DNA from: Bryobacteraceae bacterium
Lineage (GTDB): Bacteria > Acidobacteriota > Terriglobia > Bryobacterales > Bryobacteraceae
NCBI GenBank assembly: GCA_026002875.1
Contig: BPGE01000001.1
Location: 3,472,001 to 3,536,000 of the forward strand
Length of the DNA stretch: 64,000 nt
Reading direction: 5' to 3'
The notes beneath the pieces are model-generated. The model saw nothing but the letters and a program-made list of their open reading frames with translations, made no database searches and was not told the DNA's origin. The position numbers and the translations under genes were made by a program. This document shows positions 17,163-35,920 of the stretch, piece by piece (position 1 is the stretch's first letter; each line of letters starts with the position of its first letter).

Positions 17163-17927
17163 ATGGTTCTCAGAGTCGCACGGACCGCAGTTGCGCTGGT
17201 GGTGCTGGCCACAGCGTGATGGGGGATTCAGATCCCGATTACTTCATACAACGTCGGAAGGCTGAGTACAGGAATCTCAGATCTGACAGGCAATCCCGTT
17301 GCGGCGGGAGCTAACGAAGACAGTTGGGTTTTTTACACCGGCACCACTGCATCAACGGCCTATGTGGTTCGGAGCGACCGCTCGCCTCTCGGCACGCCGC
17401 CAATATGGGCGGCGAACGACACATCCTCCCAATGGATCTCGCCAACGCAGCAGAATTATACGGGCCAAGGCGGGGGGTGCTGTGCCCTGCCGACGTCGAC
17501 TCTGACAAGTTACACGGCGGCCCTGACATTCACGATCCCTTCCATGACCAACCCGCCGAACCTGCCGCAGTGGTGGCTGGTGATGTCAGGGCTCGTATGG
17601 GGCGATGACCAGGTGACGGGGTTCGCCCTGTACCCGGGGGCAACGCCTGCAGGCACGCCGGTCTACAGCTATTCCTACAGCTCGCCGTTTCCGAGCCCCG
17701 TGACGCCGCAATCTTTTTCGCTGCAGAGGTGGGTTCAGCCGGACCAGCAGTACACGCTGGCCTTCTTCCTTCAGAACACGTCCGGCACGGTGACAGGCTT
17801 CCGCCTGCAGATAAACGAGGCCTACGTCACGCCCGAACCCGGCGCGTGGGCGCTGATGCTGACCGCCGGCGCGGGGCTGGCGTTCGCCTCATGGCGGCGC
17901 CGCAGGGCGAAGAAGCCGCAGACCTAG
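17163..17927 (+). pseudogene. PEP-CTERM sorting-domain protein interrupted by an in-frame TGA
   Basis: Reading from ATG 17163 gives a signal peptide (MVLRVARTAVALVVLATA), then TGA at 17217-17219. The same frame then stays open for 235 codons, with sensible extracellular sequence (WGIQIPITSYNVGRLS onward), and ends in a typical exosortase-sorting tail: TPEPGAWALM, a hydrophobic helix and RRRRAKK. The stop falls exactly at the signal-peptide end. It may be a nonsense mutation, a sequencing error or read-through; GTG 17364 could start a protein lacking the signal. The mature part has no recognised domain. Confidence 0.75.
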
Positions 17928-18004
17928 TCGGTTTTCCTCAAACATAATCTCTGCCCATTCGCAGGTTGCATCGTCCGTGGTGCGCCCGGACGGACTCGCA
18001 GCGC

Positions 18005-18532
18005 GGTTCAGAGCCGCGAGTGAAGCGGTCCGAAGGACCGCGAGAACGAGCGGTCCTGGCGTGGCCCCGTGCGGGTGACCGCTCACTTTCGGCGGCTTAC
18101 GCCGCCTTCGTTCGCGGCTCTGACAAGCGCCATCCACGCGGGTTCAGAGCCGCGAGTGAAGCGGTCCGAAGGACCGCGAGAACGAGCGGTCCTGGCGTGG
18201 CCCCGTGCGGGTGACCGCTCACTTTCGGCGGCTTACGCCGCCTTCGTTCGCGGCTCTGACAAGCGCCATCCACGCGGGTTCAGAGCCGCGAGTGAAGCGG
18301 TCCGAAGGACCGCGAGAACGAGCGGTCCTGGCGTGGCCCCGTGCGGGTGACCGCTCACTTTCGGCGGCTTACGCCGCCTTCGTTCGCGGCTCTGACAAGC
18401 GCCATCCACGCGGGTTCAGAGCCGCGAGTGAAGCGGTCCGAAGGACCGCGAGAACGAGCGGTCCTAACGTGGCCCCGTGCGGGTGACCGCTCACTTTCGG
18501 GCGCTTCCGCGCCCTTCGTTCGCGGCTCTGAC
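18005..18532. repeat. Four tandem 136-bp structured repeats
   Basis: Copies start at 18005, 18141, 18277 and 18413, exactly 136 bp apart; copies 1-3 are almost identical, and the last ends at 18532 without the 16-bp linker. Each unit is closed by TCAGAGCCGCGA/TCGCGGCTCTGA (12 bp) and contains three inner hairpins: GCGGTCC-gaa-GGACCGC, GAGCGGTC/GACCGCTC, and GGCGGC-ttac-GCCGCC. In copy 4 the last hairpin is GGGCGC-ttcc-GCGCCC, changed on both arms. It fills the space between two convergent genes. Apparent 93-residue reading frames in it are by-products of the repeat. Confidence 0.9.
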
Positions 18533-18603
18533 TCTGCGGCTTCGCCGCCTTCAGTCGCGGCACCGGTTCCGCCGCTGACGCGGCCTTCGTGCGCGTCACC
18601 GAC
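18533..18603. repeat. Degenerate hairpin tail of the tandem array
   Basis: Further short hairpins such as GCGGC-ttc-GCCGC (18536-18548) and CCGC-tga-CGCGG-like pieces repeat the motif style CTTCgttcGCGG. They look like decayed or partial arms of the array, ending just before the stop of the convergent barrel gene. Confidence 0.45.
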
Positions 18604-18607
18604 CGGA

Positions 18608-21211
18608 TCAGAACGCGAAGCGGAGGCCGAACTGGAAGACGCGGCCGTCGTTCAGCGTGTTCGTGATCTTGCCGAAGGCCGGCGAGGACAGATTGCGCTG
18701 CGGCTCGTCGAACTGGGGCGTGTTCGACAGGTTGTAGGCTTCGGCGCGCCACTGCAGGATCCACTCGTTGGGGAGGCGGAACTGGCGGGCGATGGAGGCG
18801 TTCCAGTTCCAGATGGGCGCTTTGCGGAACGTGCCGCGGCCGACGGAGCCCGCAAGTTCGCCAGGACGGAGATAGGCGAACCGCTCGCGCGAAAGGATCA
18901 GCGGAGCCGTGTCCGGATGGCCGATGGTCCTGCCGAGGATCGACGGATCGAGGATGTGCGGGCGGTCGCCTCCGCCGCCGTCGACGTTGCCGAAGCCCGG
19001 CGCATCGCTGCCGATGTAGAGCGTCAGCGGGGTGCCTTTCTTCCACATGTGCGAGCCCGCCACCTGCCAGCCGCCGGCAACCGCGCGCACCCACCGCGAA
19101 GACGAGCGCGGAGCGGGGATGTCGTAGCTGTAGTTCCACAGCAGGCTGTGCGTGGAATCGAAATTCGACAGCCCCTTCTTGTCGCCGAAGGAATCGTACT
19201 GCCACTGCGAGCGCATGGAGATGATGTCGCGCGCGGCGGCGGTGGTGGCGAAGTCCGGCCCCTGATCGATGGCCTTGGAAAACGTATAGGCGGCCGAGAC
19301 CAGCAGTCCGCGCCACAGGGGCAGATCGTACTGCGCCTGCGCGGCGTCGAAATAAGCGATGCCGCCATTGACGATGGTGCGCGTGTCGTAATAGCGGGGG
19401 TCGGGGCGGCGGATATCGAGGTTGCCTGTCGTGAGAGGCAGGCCAGGCACGGGCTCGGCGCGGTTCATCGTGTAGGCGTTCAGCAGTTTGATGGAGCGGC
19501 TGCCGATGTAATGGAGCCTGAGCATGGAGGCGGCCGCCAGCCGGCGCTCGAGCGTCAGCGAGTACATGTGGGAATAGGGCGTGCACAGGTCCGGGCTGAG
19601 CCACGTGGGCGAATAGCGCGCGTCGGGGCGGACATCGACTCCGCGGAGGGGATCGGCGAGATCCGGATCGGGCACCATGACGTAGAGCACGTGCGGCGGA
19701 TTGAGGCGGATCTGCTGGTACGTCACGGGCGGAATCTGGGAGAACGTCGTCGTGTAGGCCGCGCGCACTACCCAGCCGCGGCCCGCCTGCCAGGCCAGGC
19801 CGAGCTGCGGGCTCAGGTTGTTTGCGTCGGTCTGATAGGGGATGACGTCGTAGCGGTGCACTTCCACGGGGCGCGAGTCGGCCATGTAGCGGACGCCGTA
19901 CGTGACGGTCAGCCGCGGGTGCGCTTTCCATTGATCTCCGAAGAAAAGGTGCGCCGTCCAGTTGCGGTAGCCGCGGTGGATCTCGCCCAGGGCCACCTCG
20001 TACAGCAGGGCGCGGCCCAGGCGCAGATTGTCGATCGACGTGAGGCCGGCGGTGGCGCCGAACTGGAAGTAACCGCGGCCGTTGTATGTCTCGCGCCCGT
20101 TGAGCTGAAAGCGGACGAAATCGCCGCCCGCGGTGAACTGATGGCGCCCCCCTGCGGCCAGGCGCCGCCAGACGCCGCCGTAGCGGAATGTGTTCGTGGC
20201 GCGTTCGATGGGGAAGTACGAATCAGGACCGAGCTCTTCAATCGCGTAGCCGAAGCGGACGCGGGGGCCGACGGCGTTCGGCTCGGGCACCAGATCCGTG
20301 CGGTTGCGGTGGAAGGAGGCGGCAAGGGAGAACTCGTCCACCGGGGACAGCACGCGCCGCCAGGTCAGGCGCGCGCGTTGCGAGTGAATGGCCGTGTCGG
20401 GATTCTGCCCGGCAACGAACTGGAAGGCCCGAATGCGCTGGCGGTCGATCGTGTGGGAGAGGAAGATCTGGTCGCGCGCGCCGAGATTGCGGTCGAGTCG
20501 GAGCGTGCCCGTCAGGGCGTCGATGCGCTGTGGAGAGTTTGTGTTCAGCGCGCGCGGATCGAAATCCGGCCGGTTTGGCGCCGCTTTCGGATAGGCATCC
20601 AGAAATCGCTGAACGATGGCGCGCACGGCAGGGTCGGCGGCAAGAGGCGTGCGCTCCTCGAGCAGCGGCACGAGAACATTTCCGTTCACCATGCCGCGCA
20701 CGTCGCGCTGCGAATAGATGGCGGTCAGCGCGCCAAGGCGCGGAACGGCGCCTGTCAGCCGCCCGCTGGCGAAATTGCGGCGCGAAGGCTGCACAGGACC
20801 CACCTGAAAGAACGTCCGGGCGTTGAACACGCTGTTCTGATGCTGGAAGCCCGCCTCTCCATGCCAGCCCTGCTGCTGCGGCGCAGGCCGCAGAGGGAGG
20901 GATTCGGAGGCCGGCTGGCCGTGCTCGGCGGCGTAGTAGTCCGACTCGGGCGAGAAGGAGCTGACGGCCGTGGGCCGGTTTCCGAGGCGGATGTTCGCTT
21001 CCTTGATGGCGTTCGTGTCGATGAAGTAGATGATGACGTTTTCGTTGCGCTGGCCGGCGGCGCCAAGCCTCGAGCCGGAGAAGCGCGGAGCGGCGGCCGG
21101 CAGCCGCGCGGGCGCGCCGTTGGCGGCAGCGGCGGGCGCCGCCGCGATGGAGGCGCTCTGGGCGCAGAGAACTGCAGGAACAGCGGCCAGAAAGATCAGG
21201 AGGCGATGCAC
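18608..21211 (-). CDS. TonB-dependent receptor-like outer-membrane beta-barrel protein lacking the usual regulatory domain
   Basis: An 867-residue protein with a signal peptide (HRLLIFLAAVPAVLCAQ, residues 2-18) and the aromatic-rich alternating strands of a large outer-membrane barrel, ending GLRFAF with a C-terminal Phe. The C-terminal part (FRLPNEWILQWRAEAYNLSN) is like that of Oar-type receptors. The N-terminal carboxypeptidase-regulatory domain seen in the 1145-residue receptor at 49667-53104 is absent, and the plug region is hard to place. The start is GTG 21211. The ligand is unknown. Confidence 0.82.
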   Translation of the reverse strand: MHRLLIFLAAVPAVLCAQSASIAAAPAAAANGAPARLPAAAPRFSGSRLGAAGQRNENVIIYFIDTNAIKEANIRLGNRPTAVSSFSPESDYYAAEHGQPASESLPLRPAPQQQGWHGEAGFQHQNSVFNARTFFQVGPVQPSRRNFASGRLTGAVPRLGALTAIYSQRDVRGMVNGNVLVPLLEERTPLAADPAVRAIVQRFLDAYPKAAPNRPDFDPRALNTNSPQRIDALTGTLRLDRNLGARDQIFLSHTIDRQRIRAFQFVAGQNPDTAIHSQRARLTWRRVLSPVDEFSLAASFHRNRTDLVPEPNAVGPRVRFGYAIEELGPDSYFPIERATNTFRYGGVWRRLAAGGRHQFTAGGDFVRFQLNGRETYNGRGYFQFGATAGLTSIDNLRLGRALLYEVALGEIHRGYRNWTAHLFFGDQWKAHPRLTVTYGVRYMADSRPVEVHRYDVIPYQTDANNLSPQLGLAWQAGRGWVVRAAYTTTFSQIPPVTYQQIRLNPPHVLYVMVPDPDLADPLRGVDVRPDARYSPTWLSPDLCTPYSHMYSLTLERRLAAASMLRLHYIGSRSIKLLNAYTMNRAEPVPGLPLTTGNLDIRRPDPRYYDTRTIVNGGIAYFDAAQAQYDLPLWRGLLVSAAYTFSKAIDQGPDFATTAAARDIISMRSQWQYDSFGDKKGLSNFDSTHSLLWNYSYDIPAPRSSSRWVRAVAGGWQVAGSHMWKKGTPLTLYIGSDAPGFGNVDGGGGDRPHILDPSILGRTIGHPDTAPLILSRERFAYLRPGELAGSVGRGTFRKAPIWNWNASIARQFRLPNEWILQWRAEAYNLSNTPQFDEPQRNLSSPAFGKITNTLNDGRVFQFGLRFAF

Positions 21212-32663: not shown

Positions 32664-33041
32664 TCACTTCTTGTCCAGGATCTCGCCGGTCTTCACGGCC
32701 ACGCGGACGCGGCGCGGCTTGCCGCCCACGGTTTCCGTGCGCGTGCCGATGCGGGACGTCTTGCCGTCGCTGGTGACGATCATCACGTTCGAGACGTGGA
32801 TGGGGCTTTCGCGCTCGGCGATGCCGCCCTTGATGCCGCGGGCCGGGTTGGGGCGGACGTGCTTTTTCACCATCATCACGCCCTCCACCAGGATGCGGCC
32901 GGTTTCGCGGTTCACCTCCAGCACGCGGCCGACCTTGCCCTTGTCCCGGCCGGCGATGACCTTCACGATGTCGTTCTTGCGGATGCGGATCCGCAGGGGT
33001 TTCTTCGGCTGATTGTGCCTGTTGGCAAGACGGCCGGCCAT
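32664..33041 (-). CDS. rplX: 50S ribosomal protein L24
   Basis: A 125-residue assembly initiator with the KOW motif ([20 protein letters not shown], about 20-39) and [18 protein letters not shown]. The first 15 residues ([15 protein letters not shown]) extend beyond the usual start. It is one nucleotide from rplN. Confidence 0.96.
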
Positions 33042-33042
33042 G

Positions 33043-33411
33043 TCAGATCACCTCCGGAGCGAGCGAAACGATTTTCATGAAGCGCTTGTCGCGCAGTTCG
33101 CGCGCCACGGGGCCGAAAACGCGCGTTCCGATGGGCTCGCCGAGATCGTTGACCAGAACGGCGGCGTTCGAGTCGAAGCGGATGTAGGTGCCGTCCTTGC
33201 GGCGCGTCTCCTTGCGCATGCGCACGATGACGCACTTGACCACTTTGCCCTTCTTGATGTTGGAGTCGGGCGCGGCTTCCTTCACGCTGGCCGTGACGAT
33301 GTCGCCCAGGCCCGCCTGCAGGCCCTTGTCGCCGCCGCGGGGCAGGATGCACATCAGCTTCCGGGCGCCGCTGTTGTCGGCGACCTCGAGCATGGTTCTC
33401 ATTCCGATCAT
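33043..33411 (-). CDS. rplN: 50S ribosomal protein L14
   Basis: A 122-residue protein beginning [40 protein letters not shown] closes it. It forms part of the 30S-facing bridge. Length and ends match the family exactly. Confidence 0.98.
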
Positions 33412-33450
33412 GGCAGTGTCCTCGTCGTTGCTAGCGAATCCCTGTCCGGC

Positions 33451-33744
33451 CTATTGCTCGTCGGCGAGCTGCACGCTGGTGTCGGCGGCGCGGCGCACCA
33501 CCTCGGCCAGCGTCCACCGCTTCAGCCGGCTCAGCGGGCGGCTCTCCACAATGCGCACCACGTCGCCGAGGCGGGCGGCGCCCGCCTCGTCGTGGGCGTA
33601 GAACTTCTTGCGCCGGGTCACGATCCTCTTGTAGAGCGGATGGGGCACGCGGCGGGTGACCTCGACGACGATCGTCTTGGCCATCTTCGTCGAGACCACT
33701 TCGCCCACCTTCTCGGTCCTGCGCTTCACGGGTGTTTCTGACAT
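33451..33744 (-). CDS. rpsQ: 30S ribosomal protein S17
   Basis: A 97-residue OB-fold protein: VGEVVSTKMAKTIVVEVTRR, RRKKFYAHDEAG and GDVVRIVESRPLSRLKRWTL are conserved. Position between rpmC and rplN is standard. Confidence 0.97.
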   Translation of the reverse strand: MSETPVKRRTEKVGEVVSTKMAKTIVVEVTRRVPHPLYKRIVTRRKKFYAHDEAGAARLGDVVRIVESRPLSRLKRWTLAEVVRRAADTSVQLADEQ

Positions 33745-33748
33745 CTGA

Positions 33749-33955
33749 TTACTTCGCCTCCGCTGCCTTCAGTTCCCGCTCGCGCCGCACCGTGAGGATG
33801 CGCGCCTTGTCTTTCCGCAGTTCCCGGTACTTCTTCAGACCCTCCATCTGGCCCAGCGACATCTGCAGGCGCAGATGGAACATCTGCTCGTCGATTTCAT
33901 GGAGCTTCACGTCGAGCTCCTTGGTATCCAGCTCTCGAATCTTGTCGGCCTTCAT
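33749..33955 (-). CDS. rpmC: 50S ribosomal protein L29
   Basis: A 68-residue helical hairpin near the tunnel exit: [20 protein letters not shown] and [20 protein letters not shown]. It is 4 nt upstream of rpsQ. Confidence 0.96.
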
Positions 33956-33980
33956 GGTTTCATCCCGATCTGGCGCCGGC

Positions 33981-34400
<420 letters not shown>

Positions 34401-34438
34401 GGGTCGATCTCTCCCTGGTCAATTCGCTCCGGCGCGGG

Positions 34439-35245
<807 letters not shown>

Positions 35246-35246
35246 G

Positions 35247-35606
35247 CTATTCCTTCTCCGCCTGCTGCCCGCCGCGGGGGCCGACCTTGACGACGATATG
35301 CGCGAGCCGCCGCTGATAGCGGTAGGCGCGCCCCATCGGGGCGGGCCGGATCCGCTTCATCCGCGGCCCTTCGTTGACGTACGCTTCCACCACGAACAGA
35401 TCGTCGACGTCGACCTCGCTGTCGCGGTTCTCGGCGTTGGCGATGGCCGAACGCAGCACTTTCTCCACCATCGGCGCCACGCGCTTGTTCGTGGTGCGGA
35501 GGATCGTGATGGCGTCGCCGGCCTTCCTGCCGCGGATCAGGTCGACGACGAGCCGCGCCTTCTGCGGCGACGTCCTCACCATTCTGGCTTCCGCTTTCGC
35601 GATCAT
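35247..35606 (-). CDS. rplV: 50S ribosomal protein L22
   Basis: A 119-residue protein lining the exit tunnel: [38 protein letters not shown] and the beta-hairpin region [20 protein letters not shown]. It is one nucleotide from rpsC. Confidence 0.97.
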
Positions 35607-35638
35607 CTTCCTGTTCCTTTCACTCTCCCGTGCCAGCC

Positions 35639-35920
35639 TCAGCTCTTGCCGGACTTGTCACCCTTGTTGGCGTGCCCCTTGAACGTGCGCGTGGGAGAAA
35701 ACTCGCCCAGCTTGTGGCCCACCATGTTCTCGGTGATGTAGACGGGGATGAACTTCTTGCCATTGTGCACGGCCAGCGTGTGCCCGACGAATTCCGGCAG
35801 GATCGTCGAGCGGCGCGACCAGGTGCGGATCACCTTCTTCTCGTTCTTCGCGTTCAGCTGCGCGATCTTCTCGAGCAGATGGCCGTCGGTGAACGGCCCT
35901 TTTTTCAGTGAACGGCTCAT
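35639..35920 (-). CDS. rpsS: 30S ribosomal protein S19
   Basis: A 93-residue head protein: [19 protein letters not shown], then [20 protein letters not shown] and [20 protein letters not shown]. Standard place between rplB and rplV. Confidence 0.98.

Follow-up and report, generated by a model that had tools for sequence, protein, structure and literature searches.

A tandem REPIN cluster and its likely class 3 tyrosine transposase in a Bryobacteraceae genome

Locus and anatomy of the array

The stretch of DNA analysed here, a window of 64,000 nt from a Bryobacteraceae bacterium, harbours a tandem array between two convergent genes. Upstream, on the forward strand, lies an ORF with a PEP-CTERM sorting motif (17364-17927; TIGR02595, 22.4 bits for a cut-off of 16). 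On the reverse strand, a gene encodes a TonB-dependent receptor-like outer membrane protein (18608-21211; PF25183, E 4.8e-98; PF00593, E 4.6e-12), with homologues in all four same-genus genomes. The array is the single strong one of the window. TRF places it at 18005-18532 with a period of 136, 3.9 copies, 98% matches and no indels, in agreement with a previous reading made from the sequence alone (the sequence-only reading), which had described four units at exactly 136 bp. The first three copies are identical over the 136-bp unit and the fourth is 94% identical to them. The same reading had extended the array to 18603; it holds to near 18532, and the remainder (18533-18603) contains only degenerate REP remnants, recognised by a two-mismatch match to the REP core (genome positions 3490543-3490561) and by the partial repeat family D2. 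This segment does not fold significantly by itself (z -1.4) and resembles eroded REP ends; the stop of the TonB-receptor-like gene sits directly beyond it.

Each unit is made of two inverted copies of one 46-47-nt palindrome of the form CAGA-GCCGC...hairpin...GCGGT. On its own strand and in the 5' to 3' direction, this module, the REP, begins with CAGA and GCCGC. A loop side of 7 nt leads to the inner hairpin (6-7 bp), and a second loop side, of 8 nt, leads to the closing GCGGT(C). In copy 1, the left REP (18009-18055, forward strand) combines the CAGA foot with the outer stem GCCGC/GCGGT and the inner hairpin GCGGTCC-GAA-GGACCGC, and it is repeated at 18145, 18281 and 18417 (65.8 bits each with R1, a covariance model of the REP module). 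The right REP is inverted (18077-18122, reverse strand), with the same foot and, on its own strand, the inner hairpin GGCGGC-GTAA-GCCGCC; it returns at 18213 and 18349 (72.8 bits each), and in copy 4 it carries the variant hairpin GGGCGC-GGAA-GCGCCC (18485-18530, reverse strand; 70.2 bits). R1 has exactly eight strong matches in the window, four on each strand and all within the array.

Arranged head to tail, the four units form a cluster of REPINs, or REP doublets, each composed of two inverted REPs with a spacer and foldable as one hairpin. The REPINs, to which no strand is assigned, occupy 18008-18123, 18144-18259 and 18280-18395 for the three copies of the same sequence and 18416-18531 for the fourth, whose right REP is of the GGGCGC/GCGCCC hairpin subtype. 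A 20-bp flank, CAAGCGCCATCCACGCGGGT, was copied along with each REPIN (18124-18143, and again at 18260 and 18396), and the duplicated 136-bp unit is the REPIN together with this flank.

For RNA of the forward strand, the unit has a four-way junction bearing three hairpins as its minimum-energy fold. Copies 1 and 2 reach a z-score of -5.4 and copy 4 reaches -4.9, with none of 200 shuffles folding equally well; DNA parameters yield about -4.2 to -5.5. The junction arises when one strand folds on itself, from the pair of inverted REPs and the spacer between them, which is partly paired. The 12-bp closing stem announced by the sequence-only reading (TCAGAGCCGCGA/TCGCGGCTCTGA) is perfect in all four units and forms where the two modules pair through their conserved 5' ends, while hairpins 1 and 3 are their inner hairpins and hairpin 2 forms where the 3' ends of both modules pair over the spacer. 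All of these folds retain the closing stem. The interior is rearranged on the reverse strand and under DNA parameters, so the cloverleaf of that reading is the preferred fold of the forward-strand RNA and not of the other two. Under DNA parameters, folding the whole unit is about 18 kcal/mol more favourable than folding two separate REPs; the reverse complement of the unit matches the unit itself at 69%.

The third hairpin of copy 4 reads GGGCGC/GCGCCC in place of GGCGGC/GCCGCC. Two positions changed on each arm and all six pairs remain intact, precisely as had been reported; copy 4 further differs in the spacer (CTAACG for CTGGCG) and in the loop of this hairpin. Over 54 distinct REPs of the genome, 96% of the cells are paired, a percentage favoured by an alignment that was fitted to the structure. 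In the inner hairpin, four of the six pairs changed on both sides, with 66 such cells compared to 23.6 in shuffles. Several inner-hairpin types recur across the genome, among them GGCGGC, GGGCGC, GCGGTCC and GCGGCC. Because the subtype of copy 4 is also present at dispersed REP copies, its hairpin can be explained as an existing REP type. The covariation that the sequence-only reading had seen in copy 4 is real across genomic copies, the copy 4 variant itself being a pre-existing subtype, and the alternative it had offered, an exchange of arms between related elements, is the better fit. The variant probably stems from an exchange between REP types, or else this REP diverged at an earlier time; compensatory mutations arising one by one at this spot would fit it less well.

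Dispersed copies and tyrosine transposase genes

REPs of this family (family 1) are widespread in the 4.86-Mb Bryobacteraceae-like genome. The covariance model recovers at least 61 matches at E 0.01 or better, a lower bound since 150 candidates per genome were scored, and these fall in about 40 separate places. The copies are essentially extragenic, with 54 of the 55 better matches (40 stretches) overlapping no ORF called by a simple, and crude, GC-frame caller. Intact doublets make up only part of them and many are singlets. Tandem arrays of single REPs of the same family occur at 3334794-3335124, with a period of 145 bp, and at 4666864-4668001, with a period of about 273 bp. As these other arrays have other periods, the 136-bp period is a local matter of one REPIN and its 20-bp flank.

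On the same chromosome, a 164-aa ORF (800887-801378, reverse strand) has REPINs on both sides. Eight REPs, hence four REPINs, lie within about 1.35 kb (800282-801626), with three units on one side of the ORF and one unit on the other, the ORF itself lying on the opposite strand. This tyrosine transposase gene beside a REPIN cluster was located by reading the DNA between the REPINs at about 800 kb, and a genome search with PF01797 missed it while matching two other Y1 genes. The Pfam Y1_Tnp model remains below threshold on this ORF (E 0.11), the best NCBIfam match, the equivalog REP_Tyr_transpos (NF047646; E 4.5e-4), reaches 20.1 bits against a curated cut-off of 80 bits, and phmmer finds no match among PDB sequences. 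With a score so far below the curated cut-off, the class rests on motifs, fold and neighbourhood. Following the motif definitions of class 3 TnpA_Y1 (PMC6006769), we found the HUH motif, a single tyrosine within Y----Q and W[TA]: all 14 aligned sequences share H87, H89, W126, Y147 and Q152, with A, T or S following W126. The AlphaFold2 model of the protein (pLDDT 82) adopts a Y1 HUH fold, and its top PDB match is 4er8, a REP-bound REP-associated tyrosine transposase (E 5.8e-5), followed by the IS200/IS605 transposases ISDra2 and IS608, with modest TM-scores of about 0.45. The flanking palindromes have a CnGA foot, CAGA in family 1 and CGGA in a second family; the GT[AG]G foot of classical RAYTs (class 2) is absent from them. 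Motifs, taxonomy, REP foot, predicted fold and neighbourhood all agree with an assignment to class 3 TnpA_Y1.

The genome possesses a second class 3 transposase gene (2181811-2182785, at 2182133), 51% identical to the first. It is flanked by the family-2 REP, GAGCCGCGCGGGAGC-hairpin-CCAAGCGGTT, also written with CGACCAAGCGGTT. Exact patterns of this REP number 50 in this genome, 11 of which are clustered at 32915-35652, 14 in the congener G004 and none in G001-G003; it is limited to two of five same-genus genomes, the two that have its transposase. Other Y1 genes are accompanied by palindromes of their own. The third palindrome type CCTCGCGCTTGCGCGAGGGCTGCATCCCAACTGTG surrounds a third gene with Y----Q retained (2167796-2168143, 28% identity). 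A Y1_Tnp gene at 3427295-3427624 (PF01797, 53 bits, open frame of 339 aa) lies between inverted copies of AAAAGGGGACAGGAACACAATTCCCCTTTT, apparently another transposase-REP pair.

Class 3 genes and the REP core also occur together on a wider scale. Around 80 class 3 loci of named genomes, the core CNGAGCCGCG has 152 flank copies for a Markov expectation of 9.1 and a maximum of 17 in 200 simulations. It is present at 51 of the 80 loci, with 130 of the 152 copies at most 300 nt from the gene, and the genes that carry it span several phyla. Most relatives display a short REP form of about 27 nt, for example CAGAGCCGCGACCGTAAGGGAGCGGTC, with an inner part of about 9 nt between the core halves versus 29 nt in this genome. 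The short-REP pattern, with its gap of 26 nt, misses the REPs of this genome because their inner part exceeds that gap, and family-1 counts for this genome come from the covariance model. At least ten short REPs were counted in 10 of 18 genomes with a class 3 gene compared to 3 of 43 without (61 genomes; Fisher p 9e-5, an optimistic value given the phylogenetic dependence of the relatives). The three exceptions are possibly incomplete assemblies. In Legionella shakespearei, a class 3 gene is followed by regular GAGCCGCG motifs of alternating orientation in steps of about 172 bp, an arrangement that resembles tandemly clustered REPINs, in this case in another phylum.

These observations invite a broader and rather doubtful proposal, that class 3 Y1 enzymes and the core CNGAGCCGCG...GAGCGGT are paired across phyla (Acidobacteria, Planctomycetes, Proteobacteria including Legionella, and others) with the inner hairpin free to vary, and that this genome would then have a long-hairpin form whose enzyme recognises the REPIN through its complete four-way junction and not through single REPs. 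A text search of the literature with the core sequence gave unrelated matches only, among the matches listed, and none of the papers searched links Bryobacteraceae with REPINs.

Origin of the array and rival readings

The array is very probably a tandem REPIN cluster of a class 3 TnpA_Y1 system, inserted by the transposase and then duplicated in tandem. This reading draws directly on the doublet architecture, the dispersal, the extragenic placement, the neighbourhood of the transposase, the association of the gene with motif and copy number, and the difference at the same site between relatives. It is most likely the genome's own tyrosine transposase that copies these REPINs. When DNA becomes single-stranded, for example in replication, the HUH-tyrosine enzyme would recognise, at both ends, the foot of the REP together with its hairpin, then cleave and rejoin the strand, and the REPIN would thereby be moved or copied to a new intergenic site. 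One REPIN may have entered the gap between the two convergent genes in this way, and together with its 20-bp flank it would have multiplied through slippage or unequal recombination. Cleavage, mobility and the mode of tandem duplication are what we infer here, the recognition, cleavage and rejoining steps from the known biochemistry of TnpA_REP, which recognises a single-stranded foot and hairpin, cleaves through its tyrosine and rejoins the strand (PMC8266576).

The same site in relatives is only consistent with such a mobility. The flanking gene pair is syntenic in the congeners G003 and G004, and a different neighbour is found in G001 and G002. Where this genome has an aligned intergenic gap of 667 nt, G003 has 131 nt and G004 has 280 nt. 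In G003 the array is absent and a possible degenerate REP-like remnant is all that the gap contains, for which reason it does not represent a clean pre-insertion site. The gap of G004 is occupied by family-2 REPs, the type of the transposase that this genome possesses. Among the functions that the sequence-only reading had considered, the mobile palindromic repeat is the one borne out, by the dispersed copies, the bracketed class 3 gene, the congener without the array and the other REP type in another.

The convergent genes on both sides and the strong hairpins on both strands would also suit a bidirectional terminator or a stabiliser of mRNA 3' ends, whatever its origin, a role already suggested for some REPs and BIMEs. 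Out of 32 REP sites with both neighbours called, 12 are likewise between convergent genes; however, the other 20 are not, and G003 has the same gene pair without the array. Moreover, no intrinsic terminator (a G+C-rich hairpin with a T tract) is found in 17930-18610, and the array, lacking any terminator-like site, does not bear out the terminator that had been suggested for it. Such a role is an unlikely explanation of the array; a secondary effect on the 3' ends of both genes is possible and would be compatible with a mobile origin.

It is very unlikely that the array is a structured RNA, non-coding or part of a 3'-UTR, with a fold under selection and a covariation that reflects RNA function. 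The strong fold (z -5.4), the genomic covariation (66 versus 23.6) and a site downstream of two convergent genes speak for it. Against it, both strands fold, with differing interiors, copies lie in unrelated intergenic places, one congener is devoid of the array, the site in another is occupied by REPs of a different family, and covariation is already known for REPINs as DNA elements (PMC3116915). The Rfam scan of the 64,000-nt window matched no family, and the structured RNA once proposed for the repeats is not upheld. A tRNA-like cloverleaf was rejected, ARAGORN finding no tRNA.

It is also very unlikely that a local palindrome was duplicated by chance or by recombination alone, without the action of a transposase: tandem duplication did occur, as the inclusion of the 20-bp flank in the unit and the identity of copies 1-3 indicate, but it leaves unexplained the dispersed copies, the four REPINs around the class 3 gene and the association of motif and gene across phyla.

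Significance and comparison with known REP systems

The array adds a well-preserved member to an established category of bacterial repeats; it is not a novel RNA. More generally, the case illustrates that a conspicuous cloverleaf showing covariation is not necessarily an RNA and may instead be a mobile DNA palindrome. Among the REP transposases, class 3 is a rare branch that has received little study, and it has been suggested to be intermediate between IS200/IS605 insertion sequences and RAYTs. With two paralogues 51% identical, accompanied by one REP family each (at least 61 and 50 copies), this genome provides a compact test system, to which same-genus genomes without one or both transposases add value, and the shared core motif names the DNA for testing.

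Class 3 TnpA_Y1 was described with a Y----Q motif, a CnGA foot and an acidobacterial distribution (Quentin et al. 2018, PMC6006769). Our system shares with it the HUH and Y----Q motifs, a short protein, a distribution in acidobacteria, planctomycetes and proteobacteria, and a gene amid multi-copy imperfect palindromes with a CnGA foot, here CAGA or CGGA. The structures associated with class 3 were termed atypical secondary structures, whereas here they take the form of a long inner hairpin, inverted doublets and tandem arrays. About 600 of them were counted in Solibacter usitatus (PMC6006769); the numbers here are at least 61 (family 1) and 50 (family 2).

The REPINs of Pseudomonas fluorescens SBW25 (Bertels and Rainey 2011, PMC3116915) are likewise inverted REPs, extragenic and hairpin-forming, with compensatory changes; tandem clusters including flanks were already described there, and in both systems a cluster lies beside the cognate transposase gene. 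In contrast to SBW25, the core here is CnGA-GCCGC and not the GTAG-type foot of classical RAYT systems, the transposase belongs to another class, and both REPs of the 114-137-bp unit contain a long hairpin. With the GTAG and CGTC super-families (PMC3733652) and the BIMEs of E. coli, our REPs share dispersed palindromes, head-to-head dimers and clusters, but they are defined by neither tag and, unlike the CGTC families without associated transposase genes (PMC3733652), they have such genes.
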